From assembly GCA_937923625.1 (NCBI GenBank), contig CALDTV010000015.1, forward strand, positions 62,001 to 126,000: a DNA stretch of 64,000 nucleotides, read 5' to 3'. The notes under the pieces are model-generated. The model was not told where the DNA came from. It saw nothing but the letters and a program-made list of their open reading frames with translations, and ran no database searches. The stretch is from an uncultured Alphaproteobacteria bacterium (GTDB taxonomy: Bacteria; Pseudomonadota; Alphaproteobacteria; Micavibrionales; Micavibrionaceae). A program made the position numbers and the translations under genes. Every line of letters starts with the position of its first letter. Within the stretch, counting starts at the first letter, position 1. Below, in pieces: positions 32,492 to 36,460 of the stretch.

Positions 32492-34537
32492 CTAAGCGGC
32501 TTTATCGTCCAATAATCCTTCACGGCGTAATAACGCATCGGGGTCAGCATCGCGGCCACGGAAATTACGGTAGAGTGTTTCGGGTGGTTCGCTACCGCCT
32601 TTAGACAGAATTTCTTGCTTATATTTTTCTGCCGTTTCGGTGTGGTACAAACCATTTTCTTCAAATAGCTCGAACGTGTCGGCATCGAGAACTTCTGCCC
32701 ATTTATAGCTGTAATATCCTGCGGCATAACCACCTGCAAAAATATGACTAAAGCTGGTCGACATGGGGCCCGCCAGACGATCAAACAAACGACTATCCGC
32801 TGTGGCGTCGTCTTCAAATTTGGCAACGTCTTTAATACTCGCGGGGTCGGCAGTGTGCCAACGCATATCCATCAAGCCAAAGCTAGCTTGACGGAGACCG
32901 CCCATACCAATCATAAAATTTTTGGCGTTATTCACTTTTTCGATCAATTCAGCAGGAATTGTCTCCCCTGTTTCATAATGATGCGCGAATAAATCGAGCG
33001 TTTCTTTTTTGTACGCCCAATTTTCTTGTACTTGTGAGGGGAGTTCCACAAAGTCCCACAGAACACTGGTTCCCGCGTGGGAAGAGTAAGTCACATTCGA
33101 TAAAAGCGCATGAATCGCGTGACCCATTTCATGGAAAAGTGTTGTGACTTCGCCAAAGGTTAATAAGGACGGCGTATCTTTGGTTGGTTTGGTGAAATTA
33201 CAGACAATCGCCACGATTGGCTCTTTTATTTTGCCGCCATGAAGCCCTTGGTCACGATAACTAGTTTTCCATGCGCCTTGTTTCTTGCCACTGCGCGGGT
33301 AAAAATCTGCATAAAGAAGTCCAACAAATTTGTTCTTGTCATGCACTTCATAAGCGGTGACGTCTTTATGCCATGTTGGCACGTTGTCTGCGGCTTTAAA
33401 TTCCAAGCCGAATAGTTTGGTGAAATGGTCAAAAGCACCGTTTAAAACTTTTTCTAATTGGAAGTAAGGGCGCAAATCTTCGCTGGAGTAATCAAATAAT
33501 TTTTGTTTTATTTTTTCGGAATAATAACCAACATCCCATGGTTTTAAATCACCCTCAAACCCTTGCTCATTTGCGAATTTTTGAAGGTCGGCTAAATCTT
33601 TTTCGGCGGAGGGTTTATAAGTTGCTAAAAGCTTTTCTAAGAAACTCATGACGGTTTCTGGTGATTTTGCCATACGGCGCTCCAGCACGTAATCAGCATG
33701 GTTTTTATAGCCCAATAATTGTGCGCGTTCATGGCGTAAACGAATGATGGTGAGGATTGTGTCGCAATTATCATAGTCATCTTTATAGGCACGGCTAGAA
33801 AAAGCGCGCCAGACATGTTCGCGCAATGCGCGGTTATCAGCATAGGTCAGGAAAGGGCCAAAGCTTGGATAATCGAGCGTGAACAGCCATTTTCCGTCAT
33901 ATCCTTTTTCTTCCGCCGCACTAAGGGCGCCCGCCTTCGCGGTATCAGGTAAGCCCGCCAAATCGGCTTCGTTTTCAATCACCAGCTCAAAGGCTTCGGA
34001 GGATTTTTTGGCGTTGTTCATGAATGTTGTGCCAAGGGTCGACATTTCTTGGGAGATTTCACGCAAACGGCTTTTCTTTGTCTCATCCAACAATGCACCG
34101 CCGCGGACAAAACCTATATAGGTGTCTTCGAGCAAAGTAGTTTCTTCAACGTTTAAGCCAAGCGTATCTTTTTGGTCATAGACGGCTTTGACGCGGGCGA
34201 ATAAATCGGCATCAAGCGAAACATCGCTGGAGAATTCCGCATTTAGTGGGCTAATTTCTTCGGCAAGGGCTTCGAGTTTATCTGTCCCTGCGGCAGAGAG
34301 TTGATTGTAGAAAATTGAAGCAATAGTGCCAAGGCGTTGCGAGGCAGATTCTAAAGCGACGATGACGTTTTCAAAGGAGGGGGCTTCGGTGTTGTTCTTA
34401 ATGGCATCAACATTGGCGCGGGCTTCTTTGATGGCGGCTTTTACGGCGGGTAAAAAGTCATCTTCTTTTATTTTATCAAAAGGGGGCGCTTCATAGGGCG
34501 CAGGAGAAGTCTGGAGCAAAATATTATCGTTTGTCAT
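32492..34537 (-). CDS. M3 family oligopeptidase (oligopeptidase A / PrlC-like)
   Basis: A 681-residue cytosolic zinc metallopeptidase that degrades short peptides, including cleaved signal peptides. HEMGH places the zinc ligands H469 and H473 and catalytic E470. The thimet family is also marked by APPFDKIKEDDFLPAVKAA at the start and by FAGGYAAGYYSYKWAEVLDAD near the end. I use the ATG at 34537; another in-frame ATG at 34552 would add five residues, and longer starts would run into the divergent mnmC. Neither start has a clear ribosome site. Confidence 0.92.
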   Translation of the reverse strand: MTNDNILLQTSPAPYEAPPFDKIKEDDFLPAVKAAIKEARANVDAIKNNTEAPSFENVIVALESASQRLGTIASIFYNQLSAAGTDKLEALAEEISPLNAEFSSDVSLDADLFARVKAVYDQKDTLGLNVEETTLLEDTYIGFVRGGALLDETKKSRLREISQEMSTLGTTFMNNAKKSSEAFELVIENEADLAGLPDTAKAGALSAAEEKGYDGKWLFTLDYPSFGPFLTYADNRALREHVWRAFSSRAYKDDYDNCDTILTIIRLRHERAQLLGYKNHADYVLERRMAKSPETVMSFLEKLLATYKPSAEKDLADLQKFANEQGFEGDLKPWDVGYYSEKIKQKLFDYSSEDLRPYFQLEKVLNGAFDHFTKLFGLEFKAADNVPTWHKDVTAYEVHDKNKFVGLLYADFYPRSGKKQGAWKTSYRDQGLHGGKIKEPIVAIVCNFTKPTKDTPSLLTFGEVTTLFHEMGHAIHALLSNVTYSSHAGTSVLWDFVELPSQVQENWAYKKETLDLFAHHYETGETIPAELIEKVNNAKNFMIGMGGLRQASFGLMDMRWHTADPASIKDVAKFEDDATADSRLFDRLAGPMSTSFSHIFAGGYAAGYYSYKWAEVLDADTFELFEENGLYHTETAEKYKQEILSKGGSEPPETLYRNFRGRDADPDALLRREGLLDDKAA

Positions 34538-34591
34538 TTTTGAATCAATCATCACTTTATTGTTAAAGGTGAATTGATTATAACGATTTTT

Positions 34592-36460
34592 ATGAAAGGT
34601 GCACCCCGTTCCACGCAATTTGATGATATTTATTTTTCGGCTGAAAATGGGCTGGAGGAGACAGCGCATGTGTTCTTGCACGGGAATGACTTACCAGCAG
34701 CTTGGCAGGGGCGCGGACAGGGTGAGGGGCAGGAGCAAGACCAATTCACCATTTGTGAGACGGGATTTGGCACAGGGTTAAATTTTTTGAGTGTTTGGAA
34801 GCTTTTTGAAGAAACAGCCGAGGAAACCCAAACGCTTGATTTTATCTCCGTTGAGAAATATCCGTTGAAGGCGGAAGAAATTAAAAATTCTTTGGCGCCA
34901 TGGGCGGAATATTTTGGTCTGCGGATTGATATTTTATTAGAAAAATATCCACTGCGCATTGCAGGCTTTCACCGTGTTAAAATAAATCAACAAATAACGC
35001 TGACATTATTGATTGGGGATGTTGCTGAAGAATTACCGCGTTTGGAGGCATCGGTTGATTGTTGGTTTTTGGATGGTTTTACGCCCGCCAAAAATCCAGA
35101 CATGTGGAATACGGAAGTCTTCGCGCAGATGGCGCGACTGTCGAAAGAAGGGGCTAGCTATGCCACCTATACGGCAGCAGGAGATGTTCGACGTGGGTTA
35201 GCGGCGGCAGGTTTTTCCGTTGAGAAACAAAAAGGATTTGGCCATAAACGCGACATGATCGCGGGGTGTTTTAAAGCTCCTTGTCATTCCGTCTCTAGCG
35301 AAGCGAAACGAAGGAGTCTTGTTTCGTCTCAAGTAAGATCCCTCGGCTACGCTCGGGATGACAAGGTGGAAAACTCTCGGGCTAACAGAAAGAAAATCGC
35401 CATTATCGGCGGTGGCCTCGCGGGGACGGCTTGTGCTTATACGTTGAAACAATATGGCTTTGAGCCTGTTATTTATGAAGCCTCTGATCAGTTAGGCCAT
35501 GGGGCTTCGGGGAATTCGGTGGGGCTTTATAATCCACGTTTTTCAAAATTAAGGGATGATTTATCAAACTTTTTTGCCCCCGCTTATGCGCAATTTGTCA
35601 CAACTGCGAAAGAGGCGGGCGGCGCAGTTGATTATACGCCTTGCGGTGCGCTTCATTTGATGAATACACCAGAAAAGACGGAGCGTTTTATGTCGATGGT
35701 GAATCACTGGCAATGGCATGAGGATCATTTGCGGGTTGTTGACACAAAAGAAGCGAGTGATATTGCAGGGATACCAATTGAATATGAGGCACTTTATTTG
35801 CCTGATTCTGGGTATCTGTCACCAAAAAAACTCTGTGAATTTTATGCGCAAGATGTGGAGGTGCACTTTAACCGACATATAAAAAATGTGAATGAGATAG
35901 ACGCCGATGCGGTGATTTTGGCGTGCGGGGCGGCGGTGAAAAATTTTGATAGCTTAACGTGGTTACCGATTGAGTCCGTACGCGGACAAATTTCGGCGTT
36001 ACAAGAAACCGCGCATAGCCGTGATTTAAAATGCGATATTCATTATGGTGGGTACGTGACACCTTCGCGCGAGGGCGTGCATATGACGGGATCAACATTT
36101 GAAAAATGGATTGATCATTTGGATGTTTTAGAAAAAGATCATGGGCGTAACATCAATACGCTGCAAAAAAATATTACGTTTTTAAAAAATGAGGATTTTA
36201 AGGCCGTATCAGGTCGTGCAGGAATGCGCGCCGCAACCAATGATCGCTTTCCTGTGGTTGGTGTTGTCCCTAATAGCTCTAATACTTATGTTTCGACAGC
36301 TTTCGGGTCGCACGGCTTGGTGGGGAGCATTGCGGGAGCGCAGTATTTAGCGGATTTATTGCGCGGGCACGCATCTTGTATGCCGAGCAAAACCGCCTAT
36401 GCGCTATCACCGCAGCGTTTTATTGACCGTGCCGCTAAAAAAGGCCATGCTTTGGTTTAG
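34592..36460 (+). CDS. mnmC: bifunctional tRNA mnm5s2U methyltransferase / FAD oxidoreductase MnmC
   Basis: A 622-residue enzyme finishing the mnm5s2U34 wobble modification. The C-terminal FAD domain removes carboxymethyl from cmnm5s2U and the N-terminal domain methylates nm5s2U. The methyltransferase part (1-229) has FDDIYFSAENGLEETAHVFL, GFGTGLNFL and LDGFTPAKNPDMW. The oxidase starts near residue 265 with IAIIGGGLAGTACAY. Between them, residues 230-258 are encoded by a palindromic element inserted in frame; the resulting peptide is polar and basic. An upstream TTG at 34574 is in frame, but the ATG is preferred. Confidence 0.93.
   Translation: MKGAPRSTQFDDIYFSAENGLEETAHVFLHGNDLPAAWQGRGQGEGQEQDQFTICETGFGTGLNFLSVWKLFEETAEETQTLDFISVEKYPLKAEEIKNSLAPWAEYFGLRIDILLEKYPLRIAGFHRVKINQQITLTLLIGDVAEELPRLEASVDCWFLDGFTPAKNPDMWNTEVFAQMARLSKEGASYATYTAAGDVRRGLAAAGFSVEKQKGFGHKRDMIAGCFKAPCHSVSSEAKRRSLVSSQVRSLGYARDDKVENSRANRKKIAIIGGGLAGTACAYTLKQYGFEPVIYEASDQLGHGASGNSVGLYNPRFSKLRDDLSNFFAPAYAQFVTTAKEAGGAVDYTPCGALHLMNTPEKTERFMSMVNHWQWHEDHLRVVDTKEASDIAGIPIEYEALYLPDSGYLSPKKLCEFYAQDVEVHFNRHIKNVNEIDADAVILACGAAVKNFDSLTWLPIESVRGQISALQETAHSRDLKCDIHYGGYVTPSREGVHMTGSTFEKWIDHLDVLEKDHGRNINTLQKNITFLKNEDFKAVSGRAGMRAATNDRFPVVGVVPNSSNTYVSTAFGSHGLVGSIAGAQYLADLLRGHASCMPSKTAYALSPQRFIDRAAKKGHALV
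35279..35366. repeat. palindromic element (family B) in frame inside mnmC
   Basis: The terminal arms CCTTGTCATTCC (35279-35290) and GGGATGACAAGG (35355-35366) are complementary except for one base. Inner pairs GAAAC/GTTTC and ATCCC/GGGAT give nested hairpins. The whole element is translated, as codons 230 to about 259 of mnmC, exactly at the boundary between the two enzyme domains. Confidence 0.85.

Follow-up and report, generated by a model that had tools for sequence, protein, structure and literature searches.

The closest described systems to the element reported here are the CGTC-tagged REPs, which occur mostly in alpha-Proteobacteria, Micavibrio among them, and form dimers in head-to-head orientation (Di Nocera et al., 2013; PMC3733652). 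According to the Results and Discussion text of that study, CGTC-tagged REPs lie in frame in many genes, uvrA and those of tRNA synthetases included; over half of the in-frame inserts consist of dimers or groups and measure 20-30 residues, and the authors suggested that such inserts may occupy flexible linkers or loops. In many repeats the terminal motif reads TGTC or CCTC instead of CGTC, and no dedicated transposase is known for them (PMC3733652). In the same text, RPE-4 of Rickettsia was assigned to CGTC-4, whereas RPE-6 and Neisseria dRS3 were assigned to CGTC-1, and dRS3 was reported to lie mostly in large clusters in Neisseriae. Dispersed pairs of short palindromes are also known as REPINs, which are mobilised by RAYT (PMC3116915).

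Here, we analyzed a stretch of 64,000 nucleotides (the window) from an uncultured alphaproteobacterium of the Micavibrionaceae, in which a palindrome lies in frame within mnmC, and we compared this locus with its counterparts and with other copies of the repeat in the family.

The mnmC gene and its palindromic insert

The mnmC gene, for the bifunctional MnmC2 methyltransferase/MnmC1 FAD oxidase, occupies positions 34592-36460 of the forward strand and is interrupted in frame by the repeat. The reading frame is already open from a TTG at 34574, although the ATG at 34592 is the likelier start. The ORF at 34574-36460 (628 codons) runs through the palindrome with no stop, as a preliminary description of this DNA had stated, and from this open frame the insert would be translated as part of MnmC. 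NCBIfam recognized the entire ORF as bifunctional MnmC (545.3 bits; cut-off 540). In the 628-residue reading, Pfam placed Methyltransf_30 at residues 120-231 and DAO at 274-595 with the insert between them, in agreement with its claimed position at the border of the two enzyme domains. An AlphaFold2 model of 621 residues, for which a 29-sequence alignment was the input, had a mean pLDDT of 89.7, and the insert was the single segment of three or more residues with pLDDT under 50 (residues 232-263; codons at 35288-35383, plus strand). Alignment with the MnmC structure 3pvc in PDB showed a gap at the insert position. The sequence of both enzyme domains is intact, and the model predicts their folds with high confidence and the insert as a disordered loop. 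The linker of E. coli MnmC (residues 245-255) is counted among the most divergent segments of the protein in the text of PMC3648344. In the region 34530-34681 of the window, the listed start of a minus-strand oligopeptidase-like ORF is a GTG that lies within mnmC; the actual start of this ORF is probably located further in, in the space between the two divergent genes.

As first given, the insert at 35279-35366 is an 88-base imperfect palindrome whose 12-base ends, CCTTGTCATTCC and GGGATGACAAGG, are complementary with one mismatch, exactly as had been read before. Its DNA fold had an energy of -19.1 kcal/mol, whereas 200 dinucleotide shuffles averaged -9.69 (sd 2.26), which corresponds to a z of -4.16; none of the shuffles was equally stable. 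The repeat proper is probably 35282-35363. The outer CCT/AGG pairs of the longer interval may be flank and need not belong to the repeat, since strong conservation in the 108 copies described below ends inside them.

Within these limits the window copy is a head-to-head dimer with TGTC at both ends. The left unit, TGTC-ATTCC-...-GGAGT-CTT (35282-35320, plus strand), has an eroded arm and a long tip when its sequence is set against the family alignment; a 14-base spacer (35321-35334), which falls in a variable column block of that alignment, separates it from the right unit, TGTC-ATCCC-...-GGGAT-CTT (35335-35363, minus strand). The copy has an unbroken stem of 5 bp, tips of 12 and 22 bases and a CTT tail. 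The right arm forms its ATCCC/GGGAT stem when the fold is computed, whereas the left arm pairs as ATTCC/GGAGT with one G-U only by reading and, taken alone, folds otherwise and not on that stem. The nested inner hairpins of the preliminary description could be retained as two arms with AT-YCC/GG-R-AT pairing and variable tips, but not as independent strong hairpins. An eroded left unit beside an intact right unit suggests some age for the window copy.

Absence of the insert from other MnmC proteins

Linker length was taken as the number of residues between fixed positions, and 86 of 90 family loci gave both MnmC domains; one locus (L128) was a dummy 100-base stretch and was excluded from the element count, which left 89. 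The MnmC linker had 35 residues in the window, compared with 8-17 in nine other species of the genus, in which the insert is missing. The profile of the repeat matched an element inside mnmC in one of the 89 loci, that of the window, and in none of the 88 others. Among named genomes, 0 of 27 loci had a profile match, and the linkers were 8-29 residues in the 22 loci with both MnmC domains; the nearest named MnmC (L178) came from an uncultured alphaproteobacterium and was 55% identical in the best segment. The same segment in other MnmC proteins, which would have marked it as native, was thus not found at these family and named-genome loci. It should be noted that none of the relatives compared had an empty mnmC site similar enough for the limits of the insertion to be set, and that the net gain could be bracketed only at 18-27 residues, because the same-genus MnmC proteins in the alignment were just 51-63% identical.

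In many family MnmC loci (within L055-L127) the two domains did not share a reading frame, as would be the case for split genes that adjoin or overlap. Such split domains may be a further sign that this border tolerates change.

A dispersed family of palindromic repeats

A profile built from 71 other copies, with the window copy excluded, matched positions 35283-35362 on both strands with an E of 6.4e-11, and this was the sole site in the window. The insert is thus one member of a dispersed family of palindromes. We searched 104 genomes of the bacterial family, representing 39 genera, with a pattern of the two ends separated by a middle of 51-81 bases, and found 434 places in 62 of the 104 genomes, compared with 3 genomes for a reversed control; this pattern is loose and also takes sister types, and 7 of the 115 places that were read were chance matches. 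When the right half was used with three mismatches allowed, 18 half matches were obtained in 5 of 10 genomes of the genus. Four of these (L136, L139, L140 and L147) had no partner in the flank by eye; the searches otherwise targeted pairs. A covariance model was also built from 61 copies and run on 385 genomes drawn from the class, under stricter filters and with scoring of 12 candidates in each genome; it matched in 45 of them.

Of the 115 pattern places read, 94 passed an inner-signature filter and 14, the window included, were re-added by eye, giving a total of 108 copies; the seven dropped as chance were L014, L017, L019, L021, L029, L031 and L268. A typical copy consists of two head-to-head units, each with YGTC, AT-YCC pairing with GG-R-AT, a variable tip and a tail, plus a spacer, and the tips vary in length and are often palindromic themselves. 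In the 108 copies the base preceding GTCAT was T (87) or C (21), where strong conservation stops, and the base following ATGAC was A (83) or G (25). The cores measured 66-97 bases.

In its own genome, a DNA search with a 106-base stretch returned the self-match alone, and among plasmids the same query gave weak, partial hits to two records (E 3); Rfam at gathering thresholds gave no match in the window. With both patterns, one copy of the GTCATYCC type could be identified in the genome, that in mnmC, and a shorter pair spacing (20-50 bases) gave no place. GTCATYCC itself was over-represented (80 against 28), but the idea that many copies are present was rejected, as eight GTCATYCC places that were read showed no paired element by eye. 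The covariance model gave four matches in this genome, of which those listed were mnmC and a related GTCATTGC-type dimer. This dimer, CGTCATTGC...GCAATGACG, is intergenic (L369, 1503-1599; G000:C6).

Could the segment nevertheless be native to MnmC, with linker DNA that forms a palindrome by coincidence? MnmC linkers do vary, as the range in the named genomes shows, and one family locus outside the genus (L043) has a linker of 36 residues without element motifs. However, the z of the fold and the match to an independent profile speak against such a linker, and the latter was counted as a refutation. In addition, a 26-base part of the right unit (35337-35362) is identical in 26 of 26 bases to a copy at another locus of another species of the same genus (G008). 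We therefore consider this explanation scarcely credible. The best explanation, to which we assign a probability of about 0.86, is that a small non-autonomous palindrome of the CGTC-tagged REP sort, made of head-to-head YGTCAT-YCC hairpins, was inserted in the short mnmC linker of an ancestor of the species.

Relation to described repeats

The element resembles the CGTC-tagged REPs, as described in the text of PMC3733652, in the YGTC tag, the stem start AT, the head-to-head dimer, the in-frame copies, among them those of uvrA and tRNA synthetases, the size of the dimer inserts (20-30 residues) and the alphaproteobacterial spread. It differs from CGTC-1 to CGTC-4 in that these have stems of 8-9 bp and loops of 4-5 bases, against a stem of 5 bp and tips of 12 and 22 bases in the window element. 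The tail of 3 unpaired bases is mostly CCA in those families and CTT here, a possible further difference. Judged by its stem and loops, the window element would be a CGTC-type repeat outside the four described families. RPE-4 and RPE-6 of Rickettsia likewise lie in frame in proteins of varied function, and their kinship, as well as that of Neisseria dRS3 as a member of the same superfamily, is by the assignment in PMC3733652 and not by sequence. REPINs are likewise dispersed pairs of short palindromes (PMC3116915), but they carry the tag GTAG and are linked to a transposase (PMC3733652), whereas the element studied here has a YGTC tag and no transposase link was found for it.

The preliminary description had regarded the insert as an independent case of a translated palindrome in a lineage other than Rickettsia. 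This novelty was not upheld, since in-frame dimers of CGTC-tagged REPs in alpha-Proteobacteria are already reported in the text of PMC3733652, where RPE-4 and RPE-6 are placed in the same CGTC superfamily. MnmC, NadE and E1beta are not named in the Results and Discussion text of that paper, and no repeat of such type in MnmC appeared in the titles and abstracts found. Translated palindromes themselves are already known; what is new is that several genera show them repeatedly at the same junctions between domains.

In-frame copies in other genes

The survey of copies was directed to those in open frames and was non-random, being composed of the first-listed pattern places, the half matches of the genus, and copy-rich genomes with further places there. 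Thirteen of the 108 copies lay in an open frame in Pfam-supported genes, including that in the window MnmC: the others were in PDH E1beta (L249), UvrA (L225, L238 and L023), CobT (L221), PurL (L245), ArgRS (L246), IleRS (L278), AlaRS (L032), PurQ (L223) and, in the same genus, NadE (L272) and RNase HII (L144). Two copies near the start of an open stretch, which may precede the gene (L254, FliP; L264, LysM/M23), and five in an open frame without a Pfam match (L226, L228, L232, L270 and L037) were excluded from the 13. Further in-frame copies outside the 13 were found in E1beta of a same-genus genome (G007, L145), where the element was missed by the pattern, in ferrochelatase (L384) and IleRS (L388) of one genome (G092), and in Lnt, MtaB and TruA of a genome from another family of the class (G213). 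In G092, one whole and one partial element also lie ahead of the first PurL domain (L383, 1131-3077); as they may precede the true start, this PurL was kept off the in-gene list.

The location of these copies relative to Pfam domains was assessed in 11 proteins, leaving aside UvrA, PurL, PurQ and TruA, in which Pfam coverage is incomplete or borders are unclear. Six copies lay between domains, compared with 2.4 expected (P 0.014, post hoc), and in the remaining five proteins (IleRS, AlaRS, ferrochelatase, RNase HII and Lnt) the copy was inside a domain.

We also considered whether the element is adapted to openness in many frames. This was rejected: in non-genic copies 1.96 of the six frames were open, compared with 2.67 in shuffles. 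As non-genic copies are not unusually open, the genic ones look like survivors and not like elements built for translation. Random landing would hit mostly genes, so a genic fraction of 12%, in this non-random sample, would point to strong loss from genes, with some survivors.

Recurrence at the same domain junctions

The linker between the lipoyl and transketolase domains of E1beta carried the element in 6 of 70 loci (G007, G035, G078, G092, G053 and G076), all in one frame; these loci were read out of 100 genomes with a match, and the match in G076 was weak (L419, E 0.004). At the glutaminase-synthetase junction of NadE it was present in 3 of 50 loci (G011, G023 and G091), read out of 95 genomes, that in G091 being a match to half an element (L290). 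When the linker was left out of an E1beta tree of 30 rows, four state changes were needed to account for the four carriers; strongly supported branches, which make up 5 of the 27 inner branches, forced at least two. Copies in UvrA of two genera began 48-49 residues past the DNA-binding domain, and those in IleRS, again of two genera, 291-293 residues past the start of the Pfam match.

Linker length in E1beta could be measured in 28 of the 30 rows: 45-48 residues in the four with the element (L310, L317, L321 and L334; further carriers are L405 and L419) and 38-55 in the 24 without. The earlier view that such repeats lengthen a linker thus held for MnmC but does not apply in every case. In E1beta, where the linker is not lengthened, more than a simple insertion must have taken place; as the carriers are no longer than the non-carriers, the element seems to have replaced the native linker, or a later deletion restored its length. 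One further E1beta linker (L324, in G043) resembled an element-derived peptide by eye and had no profile match.

A tentative reading of these data, which we hold to be possible and somewhat less probable than not, is that palindromic repeats have supplied the family with interdomain linkers time and again. Independent copies at the E1beta and NadE sites, and seemingly at those of UvrA and IleRS, together with the unchanged length in E1beta, would then make them interchangeable linker cassettes and not only tolerated debris.

It is a different matter whether the segment is in service, that is, whether the palindrome or its peptide is kept by selection, for example for slowing the ribosome between the two domains or as a longer polar linker. 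The repeated hits at the junctions of E1beta and NadE, the changes on the E1beta tree and the excess of copies between Pfam domains speak for such a role, and the RNA fold of the window element (-36.7 kcal/mol, a bare figure without shuffle control) was put on the same side. On the other hand, most species examined have the same enzymes without the element, the left arm of the window copy is eroded relative to the family, and tolerance of linkers accounts for the recurrence equally well. We regard selection for such a service as rather unlikely.

Mobility and possible mechanism

No direct repeats flanking the 108 copies were found beyond chance at offsets of 0-5 and lengths of 2-7, so a target duplication was not seen; of the 144 asymmetric settings a single one was conspicuous, at 8 against 2.1, and was taken as chance. 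Mobility therefore rests on dispersal and not on a transposition footprint. A conventional MITE that depends on a DDE transposon for cut-and-paste movement with target duplication would share the inverted ends and the size of the cores, but it should leave the flanking repeats just sought, and the interior consists of two palindromic units instead of a shrunken transposon; this origin appears very improbable. A single-strand, REP-like route fits better than a classical MITE, given the paired hairpins and the lack of a target duplication.

A candidate mover of the copies is the single-copy Y1 (RAYT-like) transposase of the genus. A Y1_Tnp gene was present in 9 of the 10 genus genomes, including the one under study (L175, G000:C23:63262-63582), and related GTCAT repeat end pairs occurred near 3 of 30 Y1 loci. 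The first of these (L155, 704-800) is of the GTCATCCCGGCG type and belongs to the genome that is richest in copies (G032, 60 pattern matches); the other two (L173 and L177) are GTCATTGC-type pairs. However, a window-type copy was found near none of the 30 loci (to about 1.5 kb on each side, E 0.05). Nor did copy number differ between the 33 genomes with Y1_Tnp (median 2) and the 71 without (median 1; p 0.14), and among the 12 copy-richest genomes 9 had no Y1_Tnp match. In the genus there is one Y1 gene per genome, with a common neighbour in the three loci read, and this single-copy gene looks domesticated. RAYT as the mover of the window-type repeat is thus not supported, and we judge it unlikely that the genus Y1 transposase spread the copies, while the three loci leave room for a role with the related repeats. 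No transposase tied to the repeat was found, Y1_Tnp being the one examined.

On the preferred reading, that of an inserted REP-like palindrome, insertions would happen widely in genes, and most of them would be lost because frame or fold is broken. The surviving copies would be those whose frame stays open and which sit in linkers and loops, where their effect may be nearly neutral. The mnmC copy may persist because it could be cleanly removed only by a deletion that is exact and in frame.

Implications

The mnmC locus would provide a clear example of a dispersed repeat that has become protein sequence in a fusion of two enzymes. The family, in which about 100 species have the same junctions with and without the element, offers a natural experiment. 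Whether such inserts are neutral survivors or useful linkers thereby becomes testable in MnmC, NadE and PDH E1beta.
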